A program made the position numbers and the translations under genes. Shown here piece by piece: positions 118-63,934 of a stretch of DNA of 64,000 nt (its first letter is position 1; every line of letters begins with the position of its first letter). The notes below the pieces were generated by a model. That model saw nothing but the letters and a program-made list of their open reading frames with translations. It searched no databases and was not told the origin of the DNA. Location of the stretch: contig NZ_ATXB01000001.1 of NCBI RefSeq assembly GCF_000421465.1, forward strand, positions 2,077,001 to 2,141,000, in the 5' to 3' direction. The stretch is from Methylohalobius crimeensis 10Ki (GTDB lineage: Bacteria; Pseudomonadota; Gammaproteobacteria; Methylococcales; Methylothermaceae).

Positions 118-1999
118 AGCCGAGATAGATTGGCTGCGTTCCCTCTTCGACCCCCTGGAAGACCCGGGACCGCCCAATTGGCCCGCTGCGCCGGAAGGAC
201 CTCTTATCGAACGATGGCAAAGCTGGTTTGCCCCCGTCGGAAGGTGGGAAGGCAGTTGGCTGGACGGCGTCGTAACCCTGGCCAACGCCCACACCGAAAG
301 GGGAGCGGCACTACTGCGCTTGCAAGTGGCGATGGAAACAGCGGCAGCCGACCGGCGGCAAATCTTTAGGTCGGTAGGCGGCAACCCCTCGCCGGCTCTG
401 CAGGAAGACCTTGCTTGGCTGACCGCTCTGGAGCGCCGGGGCGAGTTATTTCTGCCGGAAATCCTCGGGATCACCCTGGCCCATGCCCGAATGGGCGGCG
501 GGATGTTCAGCTTCGGCCGCGCAAAACCGCCGACTCGAAATACTCCGGAAGAGACTCGAAGCGCTGCGGAGCAGAATTACCTCGAGGTGAAAGCGATGGC
601 GGAAGCCTGTTTAGGGCCCGGAATAAACCCGGACCGGCTCGCCGCAGGATCGGCTTTCTACCATCGCCGCAGCCGCGCCTGGCTTGCCGCTTGGGAAGGC
701 ATTTCTTCCGATCCGCGCCGGCAGGCGCTTGCCCTTTTGCGGGAAAAAGCCCGCTACGGCAAAGGTTTGCATGATCGAATCCGTCTCAAAGGACGCAGTC
801 TGGACGACTGGTTGGAGGCGTTGGCGGACGGAAAAGAAACGAGCTTCCCCGATGTTTTTCCAAATTCTTCCCTTGGCAGGCATTTTTTAAATCAGACGCT
901 CGCATTCGGAGGGCCCATGTTCGGCGTATTCAGCCACGAAGAACAGGCCATTCTACGTCGCTGGCTGGAATGGGAAGAAACGTCCGATGCAACCCCCGCT
1001 CTCGGCAAACCGCCGCTTCCCACAACCGAAAATCCCATTCCCGCCGCGCCTTCCGTCTCACCGACTCGAAGAGCTGCGGAGCAGAAACCTTCCCGGCAGG
1101 CAAAACTCTCTCCCCCTCTCCTCTATCACCGGCTCTTGCATCCGGACCGATTTCCCCACAGCCTGCCGGCGGCCCGTCGTTACGTGCGAAAGATTCTGGC
1201 CCGCGCCGGCAGAGGTAAACTCCCTTTTTCCTACACGCCGGAAGCTTTTTGCCAATGGATGGAAGACACCTACGCAGAACGGATAGGCCCCGCCCCCGCT
1301 CGGACCTATCCGCTTCTATCCCAACCCTCTTACCGCTGGGGCATCGAGCAACTCGCGCCGGCGATTCTCGTGGACGGAAGCTGGCTGGCCAATACCTTGG
1401 CTTTAGCACGGACCTACCCCAGGGTGGGGCGGCCCTTGTGGAAAATCTTCCGAGATGAACTAGGGGACGGCGAAACCTGCCGCAACCACGCCAATGTCTA
1501 TCGGAAACTCCTCAAGCAGGCAAATATTTCCCTGCCACCTTTCGATTCGGAAGCTTTCATCCATCACCGGGGATTCGTGCTTGGGGCGTTCGATATGCCC
1601 GCCTATTTGCTGGCCATCGGCCGCCTTCCCCACGCTTTCCTGCCCGAACTGCTCGGCCTGAACCTCGCCATCGAGCTGAGCGGCCTGGGCCAGACCTATC
1701 GGCGCTTGGCCAGGGAAATGGAGTATCACGGCTTCGATGCCACCATCGTTCGTCTGCATCAATCCATCGATAACCTCGCCTCGGGCCACGCCGCCCTGGC
1801 GCGCGATGCAATCATCGCCCATTTGGAAACAATGGATCGAGGCGGAGAGGAAACGGTCCCACGGCAATGGCGCCGGATCTGGACCGGCTATCGTTCGCTT
1901 CGCATCGCCTCCCGGCGCTTCGCCTGGGCACTGGTCATCGGTTGGGGATGGCGTTTCGGTCTGCGGGAGCGATTCTTGGGTCGGACGCCTCTCCCATGA
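101..1999 (+). CDS. Iron-containing redox enzyme-like protein (heme-oxygenase-like diiron fold)
   Basis: A 632-residue protein. Its C-terminal third resembles the heme-oxygenase-like diiron (HDO, 'iron-containing redox enzyme') family: an ELLGLNLAIEL helix at about 517-530 followed by H553, D557 and H563 in LHQSIDNLASGH, the spacing expected of metal ligands on a long helix. Members of this fold oxidise, desaturate or cleave amine or fatty-acid substrates using O2. The protein is much longer than the usual 220-350 residues. The first 300 residues may hold a second divergent helical domain, then a Pro-rich linker at about 310-340. Its start lies 17 bases inside the carbamoyltransferase gene, suggesting a shared pathway. 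The 3' end overlaps the convergent glycosyltransferase by 65 bases. Family assignment is from motif recognition; substrate unknown. Confidence 0.62.
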   Translation: MWNPSEAEIDWLRSLFDPLEDPGPPNWPAAPEGPLIERWQSWFAPVGRWEGSWLDGVVTLANAHTERGAALLRLQVAMETAAADRRQIFRSVGGNPSPALQEDLAWLTALERRGELFLPEILGITLAHARMGGGMFSFGRAKPPTRNTPEETRSAAEQNYLEVKAMAEACLGPGINPDRLAAGSAFYHRRSRAWLAAWEGISSDPRRQALALLREKARYGKGLHDRIRLKGRSLDDWLEALADGKETSFPDVFPNSSLGRHFLNQTLAFGGPMFGVFSHEEQAILRRWLEWEETSDATPALGKPPLPTTENPIPAAPSVSPTRRAAEQKPSRQAKLSPPLLYHRLLHPDRFPHSLPAARRYVRKILARAGRGKLPFSYTPEAFCQWMEDTYAERIGPAPARTYPLLSQPSYRWGIEQLAPAILVDGSWLANTLALARTYPRVGRPLWKIFRDELGDGETCRNHANVYRKLLKQANISLPPFDSEAFIHHRGFVLGAFDMPAYLLAIGRLPHAFLPELLGLNLAIELSGLGQTYRRLAREMEYHGFDATIVRLHQSIDNLASGHAALARDAIIAHLETMDRGGEETVPRQWRRIWTGYRSLRIASRRFAWALVIGWGWRFGLRERFLGRTPLP

Positions 2000-3005
2000 G
2001 CGCCAAGCAGATTGCCCGCCAGCGCCGGAAAACCGCTTCCCAAGAAAGCGGCGTCGGTAATTCCCGGTAGCCTTTTCGCCAAATCCATCGGGGCTTCGGG
2101 GTTTCAAACATCTTCCTGAACGCTTGGGCGAAACCGAAGCGATCGCCGGGCTCCACCAGCCATCCGCTGCATCCGGGTCTCACCCAGCGCGACGCCTCTC
2201 CCACCCGAGTCGAGAGGATAGGCACCCGCCGCGCCGCCGCCTCCGCCAAGGCCATCCCGAAACTTTCGAAACGGCTCGGAAAGAGAAACCAATCGGCCGC
2301 ATCCAACAGCCTGATTACCCGCTCAGGCGGCAGCGTTCCATGTTGAATCACCCGCCCGGCAAGCCCCAAGCGACGGATTTTTCCTTGCAGGCGCAGGGCA
2401 TGGCCCGGGTCGAATCCGGCCGAACCGACCCAATGCCAGCGCCACCGATAGCGGCGCAATCCCGCCAAAACTTGCAACAGTTCCGAATAACCTTTGGCAG
2501 GCAAGAGATTGGCCACCGTCACCAACTCTGTCCTGTCCGAAACAAAGGCGGGACGGGGCAGAGAAGCTAAAAAGCGCCCATCCACCCCCGGCTCGCAGAC
2601 CACGACCTTCGCCTCTGGACGCAACCGCCGCGCGGGTTCCACCAGACCCGCCCCGGTGGCTACCACCCAGTCCACGTGCGCCAAGGCTCGGGATTCGATC
2701 GCCTGAAGCGCTTGGCGCCGGGCGGGAGAAAGCCCCGGATCCAAGGAAGGCAGATAGTGAAGCAATAAGGCGTGGACGGACCCTTGGGGCAAGGATCGTT
2801 CGGCCAGATAAGGCATGAACAGGCTGTCCCAAAATATCAGCTTTGCCGAAGGCAATTTTCGATCCGATAACACCCACCCTAGCAGGGGAAAGCGGTCACG
2901 CCTGGCCTGCGCCAGCAAGGCGAAGTTGTAACGATGCCCTCCCGAAGGAAGGCGCCAGGGAGGATGGACGAGCAGGACTTGGGGCGCCGTATTGCTTGAA
3001 ATCAT
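1935..3005 (-). CDS. Glycosyltransferase family 4 (GT-B fold)
   Basis: A 356-residue soluble glycosyltransferase. The second Rossmann domain carries the typical nucleotide-sugar site: VTVANLLPAKGYSELL near residue 165, then FPSRFESFGMALAEAAARRVPIL around 255-280 with the retaining EX7E motif (E of ESFG and E of AEA), followed by GEASRWVRPGCSGWLVEPGD. The start gives a short N-terminus running directly into VLLVHPPWRLPSGGHRYNF, an ordinary GT4 beginning. It is transcribed away from the CDP-alcohol phosphatidyltransferase only 23 bases off, and its tail overlaps the diiron-protein gene. A donor such as a UDP- or GDP-sugar is expected, but the acceptor is unknown. Confidence 0.85.
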   Translation of the reverse strand: MISSNTAPQVLLVHPPWRLPSGGHRYNFALLAQARRDRFPLLGWVLSDRKLPSAKLIFWDSLFMPYLAERSLPQGSVHALLLHYLPSLDPGLSPARRQALQAIESRALAHVDWVVATGAGLVEPARRLRPEAKVVVCEPGVDGRFLASLPRPAFVSDRTELVTVANLLPAKGYSELLQVLAGLRRYRWRWHWVGSAGFDPGHALRLQGKIRRLGLAGRVIQHGTLPPERVIRLLDAADWFLFPSRFESFGMALAEAAARRVPILSTRVGEASRWVRPGCSGWLVEPGDRFGFAQAFRKMFETPKPRWIWRKGYRELPTPLSWEAVFRRWRAICLALMGEASDPRIAPADRNAIPNR

Positions 3006-3022
3006 ACAAGTATCAGTATAAT
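2996..3022 (+). promoter_or_regulatory. Candidate promoter with perfect -10, close to the start codon
   Basis: A perfect TATAAT lies at 3017-3022, with TTGAAA at 2996-3001 (15-base spacer) or TTGCTT at 2992-2997 (19-base spacer). The -10 is only six bases upstream of the ATG at 3029, so a transcript starting at normal distance would begin at or near the start codon. No Shine-Dalgarno sequence is visible between. The call depends on the 3029 start being correct. Confidence 0.4.
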
Positions 3023-3028
3023 CGGCCC

Positions 3029-3766
3029 ATGAGCTTTCCCATAAACGTCCGCTGTTCCGCCGAGCCGACCGGCAGCAACGAGGACGAAAAATACCTGACC
3101 CATTGGAGTGAACTCCACGCGGCGCTGATGCTGGGAGGGGCGGCGAATCTGGTCGCCGGGATCGTCACCCTGTCCGCCCTGGCGATCCTTGCCGGTTTTT
3201 CCTTTGCCTTGCTGATTTGGCAGGGACGGCGGCGGTGGACGTCGGAACAGGTATTCGGTTGCGCCAACTGGGTCACCCTGCTGCGTCTGACGGGAATTTT
3301 AGTCATGCTTGCCACCGCTGCGACCGGTCTCGGCGCGGTGGGCACGGCGTTTCTCCTCTGGACGCTCGACGGTCTCGATGGCTGGCTCGCCAAGCGTCAT
3401 CGGAAAGTTTCTTCCTTCGGTGATCTTTTCGACAAGGAAACCGATGCCTTTTTCACCTTGAGCCTGACCGTGTTGCTTTACCAAGCCGTCGGCATGCCCG
3501 CCTGGATCATGCTCGGCGGCCTGCTGCGTTACGCTTTCGTTTTAATTCTGAAGACGGGGCGACGCAAGACCAGCGATCTCCCGCCCCTACGCTTCGCCCG
3601 CCCGATTGGAGCGCTTGCCATGGCGGGTTTGATTCTGGGACTCAAGCCCATGCCGCCAATTTATCATGGGGTCCTCGCGGTGCTGACCATCGCCCTGGGA
3701 ATTTCATTCCTGATCAGTTTCTGGGTCATTTTCCGAAAGTCGTCATGTCCGCCCGCAAACCGGTAA
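3029..3766 (+). CDS. CDP-alcohol phosphatidyltransferase family membrane protein
   Basis: A 245-residue integral membrane enzyme with about six hydrophobic segments. The family signature is present: DGLDGWLAKR followed by GDLFDKETD, i.e. D-x2-D-G-x2-A-(K for R)-x8-G-x3-D-x3-D. The usual Arg of the 'DGxxAR' element is Lys followed by Arg. Such enzymes move a phosphoalcohol from a CDP-linked donor to an alcohol acceptor in the membrane (phospholipid or inositol-phosphate head groups). The open frame continues upstream to 2843, but 3029 is chosen because upstream codons are antisense to the glycosyltransferase and unlike a membrane protein. It overlaps the next methyltransferase by 22 bases, so the pair is one operon. 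Confidence 0.82.
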   Translation: MSFPINVRCSAEPTGSNEDEKYLTHWSELHAALMLGGAANLVAGIVTLSALAILAGFSFALLIWQGRRRWTSEQVFGCANWVTLLRLTGILVMLATAATGLGAVGTAFLLWTLDGLDGWLAKRHRKVSSFGDLFDKETDAFFTLSLTVLLYQAVGMPAWIMLGGLLRYAFVLILKTGRRKTSDLPPLRFARPIGALAMAGLILGLKPMPPIYHGVLAVLTIALGISFLISFWVIFRKSSCPPANR

Positions 3767-4557
3767 CTATCCAAGGACCGGAGGACATCCGCGCCTTCTT
3801 CGACGACCTGGCGAGCGATTACCGCGACCTGCACGGCAATGCCGAGCGTCTGCTCCGGTATCGGTTGGGGGTCATCGAGCGCTTGCTGGGGGCCGTGCCG
3901 AGAACGGCTGAGAATGGTTCAAGGAGCCACGATGAAACGTCCTCTTGCAATAATACCCTGTTGGAAATCGGGTGCGGCAACGGCATGCATTTGTTCGCGC
4001 TGGCTCACCGCTTCCGGCGCTGCATCGGGGTGGACCTTTCCCCCAAGATGATCGCTGCGGCCGAATCGGTCCGCCGCATCCACCCCTTGCGCGAACGGAT
4101 CGAACTGTTCCCCGCCCCGGCCGAAACCTTGGAAGGGGTCCGGGATACCAGCGTCGATGTGGCGCTGTGCGTAGGCGTTTTGGAGCATATTCCGAACCAG
4201 GAAGCGGCGCTCTGCCAAATCAGGCGGGTGTTGAAGCCGGGAGGCGCATGCATCTGCCTGACCCCCAACGCCGGTTTTCTCTGGCATCGATGGGCGCCTC
4301 GGTTGGGACGGACCTGCCAATACTTGAGCACCGATCGCTTTCTGGATGCCGGCGAGGCCCGGCGGATGATTCGAGAGGCCGGTTTGGAGATGGCTCGGCT
4401 GGATTACTGGCGCTTCGTTCCTCGCGGCGATCTTTCCCCTCTCCTGGGATGGGGGTTGACCGTACTCGACTGGCCGGGGCGCTGGCTACATCTGGCCGTC
4501 CTGCGCGGCGGGTTGTGCTTCAAGGCCGTGCGGCGAGCATATCCAGTTGATGAATGA
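3745..4557 (+). CDS. Class I SAM-dependent methyltransferase
   Basis: A 270-residue Rossmann methyltransferase of the UbiE/Methyltransf_11 type. Motif I is LLEIGCGNGMH near residue 72, the acidic end of strand 2 is CIGVDLSPKM, motif II is DVALCVGVLEHIPN and motif III is VLKPGGACICLTPN. A variable loop lies between residues 50 and 70. It overlaps the CDP-alcohol phosphatidyltransferase gene by 22 bases, so translation is probably coupled and the substrate may be the same lipid or polyol intermediate. Its 3' end overlaps the convergent methyltransferase by 38 bases. Confidence 0.88.
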   Translation: MSARKPVTIQGPEDIRAFFDDLASDYRDLHGNAERLLRYRLGVIERLLGAVPRTAENGSRSHDETSSCNNTLLEIGCGNGMHLFALAHRFRRCIGVDLSPKMIAAAESVRRIHPLRERIELFPAPAETLEGVRDTSVDVALCVGVLEHIPNQEAALCQIRRVLKPGGACICLTPNAGFLWHRWAPRLGRTCQYLSTDRFLDAGEARRMIREAGLEMARLDYWRFVPRGDLSPLLGWGLTVLDWPGRWLHLAVLRGGLCFKAVRRAYPVDE

Positions 4558-5434
4558 TCAGCCCCAACCGCCCGGATCGCAGTTGATCCAGTCGCTCCCG
4601 GCGCCAACACGTCAATTTTCGTTCGGAAAATTGCCCCGAGGACCGGCCTTCGCCGTGAATCATTTCCAGCAGCGCGGCCAGCACCCCGGCATCGTCGCCC
4701 CGGTAGCTGTCTCGAATGGGTGTCAGATCCCAATCGGAACTGCCATAGGCGAGAATCCGCCAACCGCCGGCCGCCAACGCCCCATGGAGACGGCGACCAC
4801 TATAAGCGCCCCCCGTCGCTTCCCCTTGCCAGCGTCGATTTTCCATGGAACGGTCGTAGCAAGCCAACAACTCGGCTTCCAGCGCCGGGTCGGAATGGGC
4901 GGGAAACAGCGTGGTGCCAGCATCGTAGTTACAGGTAGCGTAGAACAACCCGCCGGGCGCCAGCCAAGCGGCGGCGCGGGCCAGAATTCGGGATGGCGGG
5001 ACCAGGTCCATGAAAGTATGGGCGCAGACCGCCCGGCACAGGGCCTTGGGTTCGAATTCAAGGCAATCGGCGCGGACGAAGCGAAACCGGCGCCGATACT
5101 CGGATCGCTCCGCCTCGAAACCCTCTTCGACCGCACGGCAATTCCAATCCGCCGACGTCAGCGCCTCCCGGCAACGGTCGATCGCGACCTCCACCAAAGC
5201 AGCTTCGCGCTCCACGCCCGTCAAAACCATATCGGGATTGGAAGCGGCCAAGGCCAAGCGCCGCATCATGGCCCCGGTGCCGGTGCCCAGATCCACCACC
5301 TCGGCATCGGGATAGGGAACAAGCGCCTGCAGAAAGTTTTCCCATACTTCCGGGTTGAGGCTGCGGCGGTCGAGGAGCGCCTTGGCTTCCAGATAATCCG
5401 CCAATTCAGCCGCCGTCATAGGCCGTCCAGGCAT
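4520..5434 (-). CDS. Class I SAM-dependent methyltransferase, end of the pterin-type operon
   Basis: A 304-residue protein with a class I SAM-binding core: AEVVDLGTGTGAMMRR (motif I, about residue 45), VLTGVERE, RFVRADCLEF and CAHTFMDLVPPSRIL, then WLAPGGLFYATCNYD. It is not closely similar to the other methyltransferase here. An ATG five codons in (5419) would shorten the overlap with the upstream PTPS-like gene (29 bases as called). The overlap makes it the last gene of the run cytochrome c', diheme cytochrome, RibD-like, MDR, PTPS-like, methyltransferase. The product may be a methylated pterin- or pyrimidine-derived small molecule, which is inference from context. Confidence 0.85.
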   Translation of the reverse strand: MPGRPMTAAELADYLEAKALLDRRSLNPEVWENFLQALVPYPDAEVVDLGTGTGAMMRRLALAASNPDMVLTGVEREAALVEVAIDRCREALTSADWNCRAVEEGFEAERSEYRRRFRFVRADCLEFEPKALCRAVCAHTFMDLVPPSRILARAAAWLAPGGLFYATCNYDAGTTLFPAHSDPALEAELLACYDRSMENRRWQGEATGGAYSGRRLHGALAAGGWRILAYGSSDWDLTPIRDSYRGDDAGVLAALLEMIHGEGRSSGQFSERKLTCWRRERLDQLRSGRLGLIIHQLDMLAARP

Positions 5435-5777
5435 TGGCGTTTTCCCACATCCGCACTTCCAGGCGGATATTTTTCAAATCCAGGCGGTCCTGCAAATGCT
5501 CCCAGACGATTCGGCAGAAATGTTCGAGGCTGGGGTTGAGACCGGAAAATTCCTCCAAGTCGTTGAGACAGCGGTCGCCGAAACGGCCAAGCATGTGGTC
5601 CAGCGCCTCCTCCACTTGGGTGATATCCACCAGATAGCCGTGCCGGTCGAGATTTTCGCCGCTTAGCCGTACCTCCAGCCGATAAGGGTGACTATGACGC
5701 AGGTTTTCGGGGCCGAAATCGCCACCCACCAGGTAATGCTGGGCGATGAAATCACGGCTGACACCGAGTTGATACAT
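5406..5777 (-). CDS. 6-pyruvoyl-tetrahydropterin synthase / QueD-like protein
   Basis: A 123-residue T-fold protein of the PTPS/QueD family. Zinc ligands are visible as H14 (QHYL), H28 and H30 (RHSHPY), followed by the strand YRLEVRLSGENLD and by YLVDITQVEEALDHML. The NPSLEHF element near residue 80 matches the conserved NPT/S-x-E segment that anchors the pterin. Where QueD enzymes have a catalytic Cys four residues before the first His of HxH, this protein has E24. Glu there recalls the PTPS-III paralogues that form 6-hydroxymethyl-dihydropterin. It lies 12 bases after the MDR oxidoreductase and overlaps the following methyltransferase. A queuosine role is unlikely in this context. Confidence 0.85.
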   Translation of the reverse strand: MYQLGVSRDFIAQHYLVGGDFGPENLRHSHPYRLEVRLSGENLDRHGYLVDITQVEEALDHMLGRFGDRCLNDLEEFSGLNPSLEHFCRIVWEHLQDRLDLKNIRLEVRMWENANAWTAYDGG

Positions 5778-5789
5778 GGCTCCTCTCCC

Positions 5790-6782
5790 TCAATAGAAAA
5801 ACACGGGTTGCAGGGTATCCTCAAGGCTTTCAAAAGCTTGCTGAGCCTCCTCCAGGGGAAAACGCCGGCTGATCCAACGCGCAGGTTGGATTTTCCGAAG
5901 CATGTCCCAAGCCAAGCGGTAGCGGCGCGCCTTGGACCAACGACCGCCGATTGCCGGGTCCAGGGTGCTGACCTGGCTGGCGAGGAGCCGGATGCGGCTG
6001 CGATGAAAGCGCCCTCCCAAGGTCAAAGGAAGCGGTTGGCCGTACCACGATCCAATCACAACCCGACCGGCGAAACCGGTCAAATCGATCGCCTGCTGCA
6101 GCCCTTGCATGTTTCCGGAAAGTTCGATGGCCACATCGACCCCCTCTTCCAATGACCGTTTACAGGCATTCCAATCCCCGGGGTCGAGCGGATCGACCGT
6201 TTCCGCGCCCAAGCGGGTCCCCTCCGCTCTCCGCGCGGCGACGGGTTCCGCCGCCATCAGTCGATCCAAGGGAAAGCGTTTCAATATCGCCGTCGTCAGC
6301 AGACCCACGATGCCCAGCCCGAATACCGCCGCCCGCTCTCCCGCCAAGGGGGCCGCGTCTTGGACGAAATTGAGGGCCGATTCCATGTTGGGAAGAAACA
6401 TGGCATCCTCCGTCGTCAAATCCTCCGGAACCGCCAGACATTCCTCCAGGGGCACTACGACCCGGGATTGATGGGGATGGAAGGCGAACAAACGCCGTCC
6501 CCGCCAGGCCGTCTCCACTCCCGCCCCGGTCTCGATCACCTCCCCCACCAGAGCATAACCGTAGGGAAAGGGATGGCGAAAACTGCCGCTCAAGCTGGCA
6601 AGGGTCTCGTCCAAGGGCAGGTCCTCGGATAAGCGGCCGGAAAACACCAACCCCTCCGTCCCCGGGCTGATGGCCGAACAAAGACTGCGTAGTACCACTT
6701 GCCCGGCCCCCGGCGGCGGCAATGTCCGTTCAACCACTTCCACCTTGCCGGGCGCGGTGTGCAGCAAAACGTGCGTGTTCAT
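5790..6782 (-). CDS. MDR-family oxidoreductase (zinc-type alcohol dehydrogenase-like, BchC-like)
   Basis: A 330-residue medium-chain dehydrogenase/reductase. The N-terminal GroES-like half reads CSAISPGTEGLVFSG, and the NAD(P)-binding half has AAVFGLGIVGLLTTAILK. Catalytic-zinc enzymes have GHE in strand 4, but here it is YGYALVGEV, so the His/Glu zinc ligands are missing and a zinc-independent reaction is likely, as in BchC-like members. The start ATG at 6782 overlaps the stop of the RibD-like gene (ATGA), giving translational coupling. Open frame further upstream is antisense-like and is not included. The substrate is probably a product of the PTPS-like and RibD-like enzymes encoded beside it, which is an inference. 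Confidence 0.85.
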   Translation of the reverse strand: MNTHVLLHTAPGKVEVVERTLPPPGAGQVVLRSLCSAISPGTEGLVFSGRLSEDLPLDETLASLSGSFRHPFPYGYALVGEVIETGAGVETAWRGRRLFAFHPHQSRVVVPLEECLAVPEDLTTEDAMFLPNMESALNFVQDAAPLAGERAAVFGLGIVGLLTTAILKRFPLDRLMAAEPVAARRAEGTRLGAETVDPLDPGDWNACKRSLEEGVDVAIELSGNMQGLQQAIDLTGFAGRVVIGSWYGQPLPLTLGGRFHRSRIRLLASQVSTLDPAIGGRWSKARRYRLAWDMLRKIQPARWISRRFPLEEAQQAFESLEDTLQPVFFY

Positions 6783-7507
6783 GGCCCGGCGGCGATTCTG
6801 CCCAGGACAACCAAATCGGCATCCAGGCGCTGGTAGCGGCAATTGACCAGCGGCACCGGCAGCGGCGCCTCGAGCGCTTTGACCCCGCCCAGAAAACGCG
6901 GCGCCAAGGTCAGAACGCAGTAGTCCACCAAATGCTGATGCAAAAACGCCTGAATGACGCAAGCGCCGCCCTCAACCATCAGGGTGCCGATTTCGTGACG
7001 GGCGAGGCAACGCAATACCGCCACCAGATCCAAGCGACCGGGTTCGGTTTCCGGCACCCTAAACAGCCGCACCCCCGCCGATTCAAGCCGTCTCTGGTGC
7101 GCCGCCGGCGCTTCGTAGGAAGTAAAAATCCACGGACGCTTGCGGGAAAATGCCAATACCCGCGCCGTTTCCGGAAAACGCAATCGACTGTCCAGAATCA
7201 CCGGCCGGGGATCGTCGCCCGCCACGTAACGCACATTGAGCCGAGGATCGTCCGCCAGGATCGTCTCCACGCCCACCAGCAGCGCTTGGTGGCAGGCCCG
7301 GAGCGCGTGGGTCATTTCCAAGGATGCGCGGCAACTCAGCGCGCACGGCCGGCCCGGCTCGGAGGCGATGCTGCCGTCCAGGCTCTGAGCGTAACTAAGC
7401 GTGACGAAGGGGCGGTTGACGGCATGCAGACTATGCCGGAGCTGCTGCTGCCGAAGAGGACGCAGGAAAGCCAGATGCTCTGGAAATTGGAATTCCATTC
7501 GATCCAT
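6779..7507 (-). CDS. RibD C-terminal-type (dihydrofolate-reductase-like) reductase
   Basis: A 242-residue stand-alone reductase domain of the RibD/HTP family, without the deaminase half of true RibD. Diagnostic segments are FVTLSYAQSLDGSIA near residue 34, LLVGVETILADDPRLNVR near 77-94, PRPVILDSRLRFP and IGTLMVEGGACVIQAFL near 172-190. Family members use NADPH to reduce a ribosylamino-pyrimidine or a dihydropterin-like ring. It starts six bases after the diheme cytochrome gene and shares ATGA with the MDR gene. With PTPS-like and MDR partners, a role in a pterin- or pyrimidine-derived cofactor or metabolite is more likely than riboflavin synthesis. Confidence 0.87.
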   Translation of the reverse strand: MDRMEFQFPEHLAFLRPLRQQQLRHSLHAVNRPFVTLSYAQSLDGSIASEPGRPCALSCRASLEMTHALRACHQALLVGVETILADDPRLNVRYVAGDDPRPVILDSRLRFPETARVLAFSRKRPWIFTSYEAPAAHQRRLESAGVRLFRVPETEPGRLDLVAVLRCLARHEIGTLMVEGGACVIQAFLHQHLVDYCVLTLAPRFLGGVKALEAPLPVPLVNCRYQRLDADLVVLGRIAAGP

Positions 7508-7513
7508 CAGCGA

Positions 7514-8401
7514 TTAGGGTTCGGCCGCAATGGGCGGCAGGCTTTGCAGGTATTCGATGATGGCGCGCAAATCTTTCTCGGGCAGCTTGGAGATCCCTTT
7601 ACGGATTATCTTGGCCATCTCGTCGCTGGCGGTGTCGCCGTCCGGCTTCATTCCAGTCTCGAAGAAATACAAAAGGTCCGTCTCGCTCCATTCGCCGATG
7701 CCGTATTCCGGGTCCGGGGTAATATTCGGCGCGTTCAATTCGCCCACCACGGAACCTGCATAGGCCCGGCTACGGTCGAGGGCGCCCATCCAATTGCGGG
7801 GAGTATGGCATTCGCCGCAATGACCCGGTCCCTGGACTAAATACGCCCCCCGGTTCCACTGCCCCGAACGCATGGGATCGGGTTGGAAACGCGCCGGACG
7901 GAAAAACAGCCAACGCCATCCCCACAGGCCGCGGCGCACATTGAAAGGAAAGCTCAAATCATGGGCCGGCGTTTGATGTCTGATCGGCGGAACGGTATCC
8001 AAATAAGCCTTTAAAGCGGTCAGATCCTCATCCTTCATAAGGGTGAAGGAGGTGAAGGGAAAGGCGGGATAATAGGGTTGGCCGTGAGGGGAGATCCCTT
8101 CCCGCAGGGCGCGGGTTAAATCCTTCTCGCTCCAGTTGCCGATTCCGGTTTCGGGATCCGGGGTGATATTGGGGGGATAAAACGTTCCGAACGGCGTCTT
8201 CAAGGGATCGCCGCCGGCCAGCATCGGCCCGTCCTCGGCGGTGTGACAATGGCCGCAACCGCCGAGGACAAATAGGTTTTCACCTCGCGCCAAAAGGGCT
8301 TCCGATGTGCCGGCTCGGGCCTGGAATCCCAATAGCCCGCTAAAGACAATCGCATAGAAAAAAGTAGAAAGGGGGGGCCTAATCATCCCGATAACGCTCA
8401 T
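7514..8401 (-). CDS. Diheme cytochrome c, periplasmic
   Basis: A cytochrome of up to 295 residues with an N-terminal signal peptide (hydrophobic STFFYAIVFSGLLGF, cleavage after about ARA). Two c-type heme motifs are present, CGHCH at 49-53 and CGECH in the second half. Each half repeats the same pattern of NITPDPE.GIG.WSE.DL, so the protein is an internal duplication of one monoheme domain, as in the cytochrome subunits of membrane alcohol or gluconate dehydrogenases. An ATG five codons in (8386) is an equally good start. The gene overlaps the cytochrome c' gene upstream and is followed after six bases by the RibD-like gene. No dehydrogenase subunit is adjacent. Confidence 0.9.
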   Translation of the reverse strand: MSVIGMIRPPLSTFFYAIVFSGLLGFQARAGTSEALLARGENLFVLGGCGHCHTAEDGPMLAGGDPLKTPFGTFYPPNITPDPETGIGNWSEKDLTRALREGISPHGQPYYPAFPFTSFTLMKDEDLTALKAYLDTVPPIRHQTPAHDLSFPFNVRRGLWGWRWLFFRPARFQPDPMRSGQWNRGAYLVQGPGHCGECHTPRNWMGALDRSRAYAGSVVGELNAPNITPDPEYGIGEWSETDLLYFFETGMKPDGDTASDEMAKIIRKGISKLPEKDLRAIIEYLQSLPPIAAEP

Positions 8402-8822
8402 GGCAGGCGCTGCAGCCCTCTTTGCCCATTTTCTTGAAAGCCTGAGTCATGGCGGTCTCATCGCCGCTCTTGGCCGCCTCGACAAAATCCAGGCTCAAGC
8501 GCTCCAAAGCCCGGGCACGGGCGACGAAATCGTCCCAATTTCGCCAAATCCGCTTGCGAGCTTCGCTTTTGCGATGAGTGCTGCCGGGAGGAAACATGTC
8601 CGGAATCGATTTGGCGATGCCGGCAATCGCCTCTCCGTGCTCCACCGCATAAGGCAGAAATTGCTTCTGGCCGCCGATGAAAATCGCTTTCAATGCCGCC
8701 ATATGCCCGCCGTTGGCTTCCATCACTCCCTGTCGATATTCAACGACGACTTCGACATCCGCGAAGGCGGGAGACAATACCGAGCAAGTCAGGATGACCG
8801 CAAACCAATGCTTATGCCTCAT
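8379..8822 (-). CDS. Cytochrome c' (four-helix-bundle monoheme cytochrome)
   Basis: A 147-residue exported protein. The signal peptide MRHKHWFAVILTCSVLSPAFA supports the ATG at 8822 rather than the earlier in-frame start at 8864. The heme motif CSACH sits 9-13 residues from the C-terminus followed by ERYRDD, the hallmark of class II cytochromes c. The body is predicted helical, with RQGVMEANGGHMAALKAIFIGG matching the first helix, where the Met-rich segment packs on the heme. Cytochromes c' bind NO and are linked to NO tolerance. It overlaps the diheme cytochrome and heads the minus-strand operon. Confidence 0.92.
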   Translation of the reverse strand: MRHKHWFAVILTCSVLSPAFADVEVVVEYRQGVMEANGGHMAALKAIFIGGQKQFLPYAVEHGEAIAGIAKSIPDMFPPGSTHRKSEARKRIWRNWDDFVARARALERLSLDFVEAAKSGDETAMTQAFKKMGKEGCSACHERYRDD

Positions 8823-8981
8823 GACTAGACCCTCTTTGCCGAATACGGAAATTCGAGTATACAACCGTTCTCCGGAACGTTACTACCCTGACTGAGTGGC
8901 CGATCCGGCCGAGATTGTCACCCTTTTGTCCGGCCGCACCGTGATGACGCGGAAAAAAGTACCCTTTCAGCTCCAAACCTG

Positions 8982-9011
8982 TTGCTAACCCTCAACCCCC
9001 TGTGTTATGAA
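8982..9011 (+). promoter_or_regulatory. Weak candidate promoter for the b561-like gene
   Basis: TTGCTA at 8982-8987 and TATGAA at 9006-9011 are separated by 18 bases and lie 45 bases before the start of the membrane protein gene. The match to sigma-70 boxes is only fair. The rest of the 233-base gap between the divergent cytochrome c' and b561-like genes shows no further feature. Confidence 0.28.
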
Positions 9012-9055
9012 TTAACTCAGATCCGAATACGAACAACTGCGCTACGAGGATCAAG

Positions 9056-10180
9056 ATGAATCAATCCGTCCGCCAGGGTCTATTTATATCCCTTCTTCAT
9101 TGGTTCCTCGTTTTCGCGATCGTTTGCCAATTGCTTATCGGCTGGTATCTGAGCTTTTTGTCCGATGCCGAAAATTATCGTATTTGGCTTGGCGTCCACT
9201 TAACTTTTGGGATAGGGTTAATGCTTCTGGTATTGACCGCTATCGTTTGGCGCCTGATTCATCCCGTCCCCGCCTATTCGAATACCCTCCCCCGCTGGCA
9301 ACGCACCGTCTCCCTGATATTGATCTGGTCGATCTATCTTTTTGTCTTGCTGTCGCTGATTTCCGGCTATTTGGCGCTGGCATTCGATGCGAAAACACCG
9401 GACTTGTGGGGGGTACAACTGCCTTTGGGAACCTGGGCGGACTCATCCCGGCATTTATTCTTCAGCCATTTGCATACCGCCTTCGCAATCGGTTTGATCG
9501 TTCTTCTGGCCATCTTACTCGTGCTGGCGGTCGTATCCTTGTGGCGAGGCACCGGACTGACGGGAAAACTTTGGATAGCGGGCGGGGAAGCAACCAAAAC
9601 GTTGGTACAGGCGGATACCGGCGAACCGGCGCGAGAAGATAGAATCATCGCCTGGAATTTTCGCCTTTTCGGATGGGTGACGTTCTGGGCTCAATTGATG
9701 ATAAGCCTCATTACCGTTGTTTTGCTTGTTTTCGCCACCTCGGGCCGTTATTTCAGCGGGATGCAGTCGGGAATCGAAAATGCCATATTTTGGGCGAAAT
9801 TAGGTCTTGTTATTTTATTCGTATCGATCATTTTCTTCTTCTACTGCACGCGGCTGGCAAAAAAGGGAAACCCCAGACCGGTTAAGACGGATTCCGGAAG
9901 AGCGGGTAAGATCCGCTTTTTACACGCGGGATTCCTCATGGGGAACGTCGGTATAATCGCCGCCGTGATGGGCATCGCCAGCACCATCAGTCTGCTGATT
10001 GCGAAAACCATCTCCCAACCGCCGGGCATCGCCATCACCGATCCAAACAAGATCGTTCGGGCTTTGGACGTCTTCGTGCTGGTTTCCAATTTCAACGTGA
10101 TGGTCGCCCATGGCATCGGCATCATGGCGACCCTGTGGTTGATCAACCGAGTTTACCACTACGCCATTTCGTCCAGTTGA
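9056..10180 (+). CDS. Cytochrome b561-like membrane protein fused to a DUF3611-like domain
   Basis: A 374-residue protein with about eight transmembrane segments in two halves. Residues 1-175 look like a four-helix cytochrome b561/b6-type unit. Candidate heme histidines are in LLHWFLVFAI (TM1), GVHLTFGIG (TM2) and the SHLHTAFAIGL segment (TM4). After a soluble linker (about 178-205, including GEPAREDRIIAWNF), the second half has GWVTFWAQLMISLITVVLLVFA and three more segments. This resembles DUF3611, an uncharacterised membrane family. A quinone- or cytochrome-linked redox role is likely, given that two c-type cytochromes are divergently encoded next to it. The fusion itself is unusual. Confidence 0.68.
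   Translation: MNQSVRQGLFISLLHWFLVFAIVCQLLIGWYLSFLSDAENYRIWLGVHLTFGIGLMLLVLTAIVWRLIHPVPAYSNTLPRWQRTVSLILIWSIYLFVLLSLISGYLALAFDAKTPDLWGVQLPLGTWADSSRHLFFSHLHTAFAIGLIVLLAILLVLAVVSLWRGTGLTGKLWIAGGEATKTLVQADTGEPAREDRIIAWNFRLFGWVTFWAQLMISLITVVLLVFATSGRYFSGMQSGIENAIFWAKLGLVILFVSIIFFFYCTRLAKKGNPRPVKTDSGRAGKIRFLHAGFLMGNVGIIAAVMGIASTISLLIAKTISQPPGIAITDPNKIVRALDVFVLVSNFNVMVAHGIGIMATLWLINRVYHYAISSS

Positions 10181-62714: not shown

Positions 62715-63934
<1,220 letters not shown>

Follow-up and report, generated by a model that had tools for sequence, protein, structure and literature searches.

What reaction is served by a PTPS-like protein in which glutamate stands where QueD-type enzymes have their catalytic cysteine? 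Such a protein is encoded in a 64,000-nucleotide stretch of the Methylohalobius crimeensis 10Ki genome, referred to here as the window. We consider it, with a probability of about 0.6, to be an enzyme with the PTPS (tunnel) fold that belongs to a GTP-derived pathway of its own. An initial annotation of the window had delimited the open reading frame exactly as we find it; the strand, which it did not give, is minus (Table 1). The protein matches the Pfam PTPS family PF01242 with an E-value of 2.4e-25 (89.3 bits, cut-off 22.4), and a purine-rich, RBS-like stretch lies just 5' of its ATG. The existence of a family of relatives with invariant residues rules out a chance or spurious reading frame. 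A homologue is also present in another genome of the same genus (G003), and a tblastn search of the genome collection (E <= 1e-3) found 527 stretches encoding relatives. The 80 loci analysed below are the best 80 of these, ranked by their likeness to an alignment of Methylococcales proteins, so the counts are biased towards close relatives.

Residue counts refer to 81 aligned rows, the window protein and the 80 loci. As the initial annotation described, His14, His28 and His30 are present and Glu24 occupies the position of the QueD cysteine. Glu24, His14, Asn25, His30 and Glu112 are each found in 81 of 81 rows. His28 is found in 76 and is Asn in the other five, which means that the metal site is not strictly conserved. 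The HSH sequence, pointed out earlier as differing from HGH, is a property of the family, with Ser29 kept in 78/81. The initial annotation also allowed for the true cysteine lying elsewhere in the loop; none of the 81 rows has a cysteine at positions 15 to 27. The haloarchaeal homologues have Glu at position 24 in eight of eight cases, followed by Gly at position 25. QueD-type rows have Cys at position 24 in 10/11 (a gap in the remaining one), with the Asp of the Asp-His dyad in 10/11 and the His in 9/11; we take these three positions to be the QueD catalytic triad. At the Asp position, the family has Arg or Lys67 in 73/81 rows (Gly67 in the window protein), and at the His position Asp or Glu68 in all 81 (Asp68 in the window protein). 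The Glu24 substitution therefore does not stand alone: the Cys, Asp and His positions of the catalytic triad are all altered.

The AlphaFold2 model of the window protein, calculated from a 45-row alignment, has a mean pLDDT of 90.2 and adopts the PTPS tunnel fold. Its best matches among solved structures are a tie between SCO6650 (PDB 3d7j; Z 17.2, rmsd 2.1, 123 aligned residues), Escherichia coli QueD (4ntm; Z 17.1, rmsd 1.9, 116 aligned) and human PTPS (Z 17.1, rmsd 2.1, 121 aligned), with Plasmodium PTPS further off (Z 13.5-13.9). By sequence, the top PDB match is SCO6650. A tree was calculated from 48 rows of four kinds only (24 ExxxHSH, 8 haloarchaeal, 11 QueD-like and 5 FGPAQ). The 32 ExxxHSH and haloarchaeal rows split from the 11 QueD and 5 FGPAQ rows at a branch with support of 99/96, in an unrooted tree with long branches flagged; the FGPAQ rows have a branch of their own (100/98). 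In this tree the ExxxHSH type lies inside neither QueD nor FGPAQ (PTPS-IV) but on a branch of its own. Being unrooted, the tree is compatible with either of the two as the nearer group, and with a sister relation or none.

Table 1. Features of the PTPS-like locus (window positions).
Feature	Position	Strand	Basis
PTPS-like protein, ExxxHSH type, 123 aa + stop	5406..5777	minus	ORF, Pfam PTPS match
E24 codon, at QueD catalytic Cys position	5706..5708	minus	Alignment, 81/81 + 8/8 haloarchaeal
H28-S29-H30 codons, presumed metal site with H14	5688..5696	minus	Alignment
RibD_C pyrimidine reductase, deaminase domain absent	6779..7507	minus	Pfam E 3.3e-41, sole Pfam family
BchC-like dehydrogenase, MDR family	5790..6782	minus	Start inferred at ATG overlapping RibD_C end; ORF listed from 6962
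SAM-dependent methyltransferase	4520..5419	minus	Start inferred at ATG overlapping PTPS-like end; ORF listed to 5434
Second SAM methyltransferase, convergent	3745..4557	plus	Profile match; relative anywhere in 9/80 loci
CDP-alcohol phosphatidyltransferase family protein	3029..3766	plus	Pfam E 3.1e-12; start inferred, ORF from 2843
GT4-like glycosyltransferase (Glycos_transf_1)	1935..3005	minus	Pfam match

The PTPS-like gene is the third of four genes read in one direction, in the order RibD_C reductase, BchC-like dehydrogenase, PTPS-like protein and methyltransferase. With the inferred starts, the RibD_C and dehydrogenase genes overlap by 4 bases and the PTPS-like and methyltransferase genes by 14, and 12 bases separate the dehydrogenase gene from the PTPS-like gene. 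The RibD_C protein passes the TIGR00227 model (154.5 bits, cut-off 150.15). The GTP cyclohydrolase II (RibA) of the host is encoded outside the operon, by a stand-alone gene at C1:1459400-1460017 whose product is 62% identical to cluster RibA. Scanned for sigma-70 promoters, positions 1900-9200 yielded 0 promoter-like sites against a shuffled mean of 1.6, and the same stretch contains 13 terminator-like sites against a shuffled mean of 9.2. Beside the operon, positions 7514-10180 encode a cytochrome c family protein, a cytochrome c' and a cytochrome b561 plus DUF3611 protein; a cytochrome b gene is also located within the Thiodictyon module described below. On the other side, positions 101-1999 encode a 632-residue protein with a C-terminal Haem_oxygenas_2 iron-containing redox domain. 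Near the end of the window, an open reading frame at 63038-63934 resembles an IS3-type transposase, as judged from its sequence.

The same set of genes recurs around the PTPS-like gene in the 80 loci, which come from named Pseudomonadota, Chloroflexota, Myxococcota and Thermodesulfobacteriota. Each neighbour is counted against those loci whose flank is long enough to hold it: the dehydrogenase lies upstream within 2.5 kb in 57/66 loci (missing there in nine), RibD_C upstream in 45/56 and RibA upstream in 40/54. On the downstream side, a relative of the GT4 enzyme is found within 2.5 kb in 49/67 loci, and one of the methyltransferase in 47/63. A relative of the CDP-alcohol transferase is present anywhere in 17/80 loci, and also in L126, L128, L129, L130, L131, L132, L134 and L135. 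In a cluster of 35 loci, RibA and RibD_C are fused into a single gene. None of the tested genes is present at L080, where just 281 bases of upstream sequence are available. Across the 80 loci, the module is widespread without being universal. In Methylotuvimicrobium buryatense 5G (L053), RibA, RibD_C, dehydrogenase, PTPS and methyltransferase genes are all grouped at the locus. All 47 loci with a RibA match have the Tyr of the AYxLQ motif, and creatininase and cyclohydrolase III references matched 0 of 80 loci (tblastn at 1e-5 only). In L094, L097 and L109, a gene on the opposite strand that looks acyltransferase-like by eye lies between the dehydrogenase and PTPS genes; its cluster occurs in seven loci, and a membrane protein cluster noted beside it in eight. 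These two clusters make a lipid-linked product possible.

Co-occurrence was analysed in 201 Methylococcales genomes, a part of the order. Strong matches were found in 39 genomes for PTPS (E <= 3.1e-38) and in 44 for the dehydrogenase (E <= 1.9e-71), with cut-offs set after seeing the tables; weaker matches, in 11 further genomes for PTPS and a further 25 for the dehydrogenase, were put down to other family members and not counted. All 39 strong-PTPS genomes have the dehydrogenase, as do 5 of the 162 others (Fisher 1.7e-36, a value that ignores shared ancestry). G033 (L141) and G066 (L142) have RibA, RibD_C, dehydrogenase and methyltransferase genes together and no PTPS gene; in G096, G106 and G108, no PTPS gene was found beside the dehydrogenase on its contig, and genome searches gave no PTPS match in any of these five. 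These genomes suggest that the pathway may do without the PTPS step or have a substitute for it. The gap in G033 holds an opposite-strand open reading frame that is CBS-domain-like by eye.

In haloarchaea we analysed nine plasmid regions of the ten such matches listed. A zinc-binding dehydrogenase adjoins or is near the PTPS gene in all nine, an annotated methyltransferase is located downstream in seven (an unnamed open reading frame takes its place in two), GT4 is directly downstream in five, and a CDP-alcohol transferase lies within the region in six. GTP cyclohydrolase IIa is annotated upstream in three of the nine (L126, L131 and L132), and that of L126 was confirmed as GCH_III (PF05165). 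A creatininase-family gene is found about 6 kb away in two of nine, both Haloarcula (L128 and L135), neither of which has cyclohydrolase III. RibD_C is annotated in 0/9 regions, and tblastn in L126 did not find it either. In L128, from Haloarcula marismortui, the PTPS match (NC_006395.1 104289-104659) is split in two, lacks an annotation and may be a broken copy; in the record of H. sinaiiensis the PTPS gene is annotated.

The neighbourhood invites comparison with PTPS-IV, for which, in the part of PMC5445326 available, FGPAQ is given as the signature and PF00925 and PF01872 as neighbours. That text names PF00925 as GTP cyclohydrolase I/FolE2; Pfam's own name for it is GTP_cyclohydro2, i.e. 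cyclohydrolase II. The ExxxHSH type shares these neighbours (RibD_C in the window, RibA and RibD_C at most loci with enough flank), with the RibA of the host encoded elsewhere, and SCO6650, ranked first by sequence and tied by structure, is a further likeness. The window protein, in contrast, reads FGPEN, with Glu24 throughout its family, and lies outside the FGPAQ group of the tree; the five FGPAQ rows read FGPAQxxHGA, with Ala at position 24 and Ala in place of the third His in 5/5. FGPAQ-type proteins are not known to contain zinc. Like the ExxxHSH genes, the FGPAQ genes of Thiodictyon and Streptomyces globisporus lack Cys24 and have similar neighbours: in Thiodictyon (L129) a dehydrogenase, GT4, methyltransferase, RibD (RibD_C) and CDP-alcohol transferase, and in S. 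globisporus (L130) a dehydrogenase, GT4, RibD_C and a match to the CDP-alcohol transferase, joined by GTP cyclohydrolase II and a gene of the creatininase family; the reference methyltransferase had no match in L130. PTPS-V is likewise a COG0720 subfamily, with its function called unclear in the accessible portion of PMC5041015.

Because cyclohydrolases II and III are the recurrent neighbours, the substrate of the PTPS-like protein most likely derives from their product, a 2,5-diaminopyrimidinone, and not from dihydroneopterin triphosphate. We infer the following order of steps. GTP cyclohydrolase II would convert GTP to 2,5-diamino-6-ribosylamino-pyrimidinone 5'-phosphate, which the RibD_C reductase would turn into the ribitylamino compound; since this reductase is without a deaminase domain, the 2-amino group would be retained. 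The BchC-like dehydrogenase may then oxidise a side-chain hydroxyl. In the PTPS-like protein, Glu112 would bind the 2-amino-4-oxo-pyrimidine ring, and His14, His28 and His30 would hold a metal polarising the side-chain oxygen. Glu24 and Asp68, in place of Cys, Asp and His, could act as acid-base, so that the side chain is closed or rearranged, most likely to a dihydropterin-like ring. If the hydroxyl oxidised is that at the ribityl C2', the 5-amino group could condense with the resulting ketone to give a 7,8-dihydropterin; we offer this exact chemistry as a tentative suggestion, with about one chance in four. The methyltransferase and the GT4 glycosyltransferase would decorate the product, and the CDP-alcohol phosphatidyltransferase may attach it to a lipid.

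The cyclohydrolases that would feed this route differ between lineages. The RibA of S. globisporus has Met at the position of the AYxLQ Tyr, and the Met-type cyclohydrolase of S. coelicolor halts at the formyl intermediate. Archaeal GTP cyclohydrolase III yields a formylamino pyrimidine that is deformylated by ArfB, and the creatininase-family protein BrbF of Sinorhizobium carries out the same deformylation, according to the section of PMC9478397 at hand. Read in this way, all the cyclohydrolase routes would lead to 2,5-diamino-6-ribosylamino-pyrimidinone phosphate; the link to creatininase is one of gene neighbourhood only. A wider proposal, which is possible though doubtful, is that methanotrophs, Chloroflexota, Streptomyces and haloarchaea share a route that is independent of GTP cyclohydrolase I and leads to a pterin or diaminopyrimidine bearing methyl and sugar groups and perhaps a lipid. 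In this route the non-homologous cyclohydrolases II and III would supply one and the same step, and once dehydrogenation has taken place a Glu/Arg/Asp PTPS-fold enzyme would close or rearrange the ring.

Two assignments to known PTPS reactions compete with a separate pathway. The protein might be a divergent QueD paralogue serving queuosine, given its membership of the Pfam PTPS family, the fold, metal histidines and pterin glutamate common to both, and the public annotation of haloarchaeal homologues as 6-carboxytetrahydropterin synthase. However, it scores 48 bits with the NCBIfam QueD model TIGR03367, below the cut-off of 89.25, while a second PTPS gene of the 3.5 Mb host genome keeps CRHLHGH and passes with 90.2 bits, so queuosine is served elsewhere in the genome. 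In place of the CxxxHGH motif and Asp-His dyad of PTPS-I/QueD, the window protein has ExxxHSH and Gly67-Asp68, and its family Glu-Arg/Lys-Asp/Glu for Cys-Asp-His; the nine neighbouring proteins scanned in the window include no queuosine gene, and the 99/96 branch keeps the protein out of the canonical QueD group, the grouping that would have overturned the initial annotation. We reject the assignment on score and tree and regard it as highly improbable. The glutamate at the Cys position, the Cys-free loop and the place in the tree make a reaction other than queuosine synthesis likely, in agreement with the initial annotation. That annotation also compared the protein to PTPS-III. This type, found in Plasmodium and some bacteria, is mentioned as a bypass enzyme in the available part of PMC3084294. 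A PTPS-III-like protein would cleave dihydroneopterin triphosphate to 6-hydroxymethyl-dihydropterin, with Glu replacing Cys. The replacement in the catalytic loop stands, the metal His and pterin Glu are kept and Plasmodium PTPS has the same fold. As excerpted, PMC5041015 gives CxxxHGH for PTPS-I, ExxHGH for PTPS-III and a combined CExxHGH as possible, which places the PTPS-III Glu one residue after the Cys position; the window protein has its Glu at the Cys position itself (ExxxHSH), with Asn or Gly next in the family, and the Asp-His dyad is replaced. FolE (GTP cyclohydrolase I) and FolB are both encoded in the host genome, so a folate bypass is not needed, the nine neighbouring proteins scanned in the window include no folate gene, and the genes that recur nearby encode GTP cyclohydrolase II or III and RibD_C. 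The PTPS-III assignment, rejected on motif, folB presence and neighbours, is improbable.

Two other explanations accept the module and differ in what the PTPS-like protein does there. It could serve without catalysis, as a scaffold or binding protein that carries or channels a labile intermediate, in which case the pathway claim is shared and only the catalytic role denied. The replaced catalytic triad and the missing PTPS gene in the G033 and G066 modules would fit such a role, as would the Ala at the equivalent position and at the third His of the FGPAQ proteins, for which the same may hold. Against this, Glu24, His14, His30 and Glu112 are invariant and His28 nearly so, as catalysis would predict, and we consider a scaffold unlikely. 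RibA and RibD_C are also riboflavin-type enzymes, and a remark cited as unpublished in the consulted part of PMC5041015 ties PTPS-IV to F420; the protein could then act on a lumazine-type or F0-type precursor in a deazaflavin or riboflavin side branch. The nine window neighbours scanned include no RibD deaminase, RibB, RibE, RibH or F0 synthase, and there is little chance of such a branch. The separate GTP-derived pathway, which we prefer, has points against it as well: RibA lies outside the operon in the host; the G033 and G066 modules and G096, G106 and G108 are without a detected PTPS; the dehydrogenase is missing within 2.5 kb at nine of 66 loci and L080 has no module gene; RibD_C is not annotated in the nine haloarchaeal regions; His28 is Asn in five rows; and creatininase occurs in just two haloarchaeal regions, not the three with cyclohydrolase III. 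Moreover, dihydropterins are already supplied through FolE, which leaves a second route to be justified.

Pteridine glycosyltransferase pathways, as in Chlorobium and cyanobacteria, start from dihydroneopterin triphosphate, whereas the PTPS-like genes have GTP cyclohydrolase II or III beside them. They resemble the separate pathway proposed above in that a glycosylated pterin is a possible product of the latter (PMC5683033, in the portion available). GTP cyclohydrolase I is the start of most biological pterins according to the accessible text of a 2026 review (PMC13259868). Among openly licensed papers, a restricted and hence weak sample, none of the titles and abstract starts listed in searches for the module or its SCO66xx relatives describes the module. 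PMC5445326, as far as its available part goes, comes nearest to it, by placing PF00925 and PF01872 beside PTPS-IV, and its PF00925 label is worth re-reading as cyclohydrolase II. The excerpt of PMC2853524 lists SCO6655 as GTP cyclohydrolase II and says nothing further. The earlier observation is confirmed and extended, and the best reading of these data is that the ExxxHSH type is a variant in a separate pathway linked to GTP cyclohydrolase II/III. Of the nine haloarchaeal homologues, eight carry the label 6-carboxytetrahydropterin synthase and a queuosine term, an annotation that hides what appears to be a conserved pathway. The module also offers an entry to the unassigned PTPS subfamilies, whose substrate should derive from GTP cyclohydrolase II or III.
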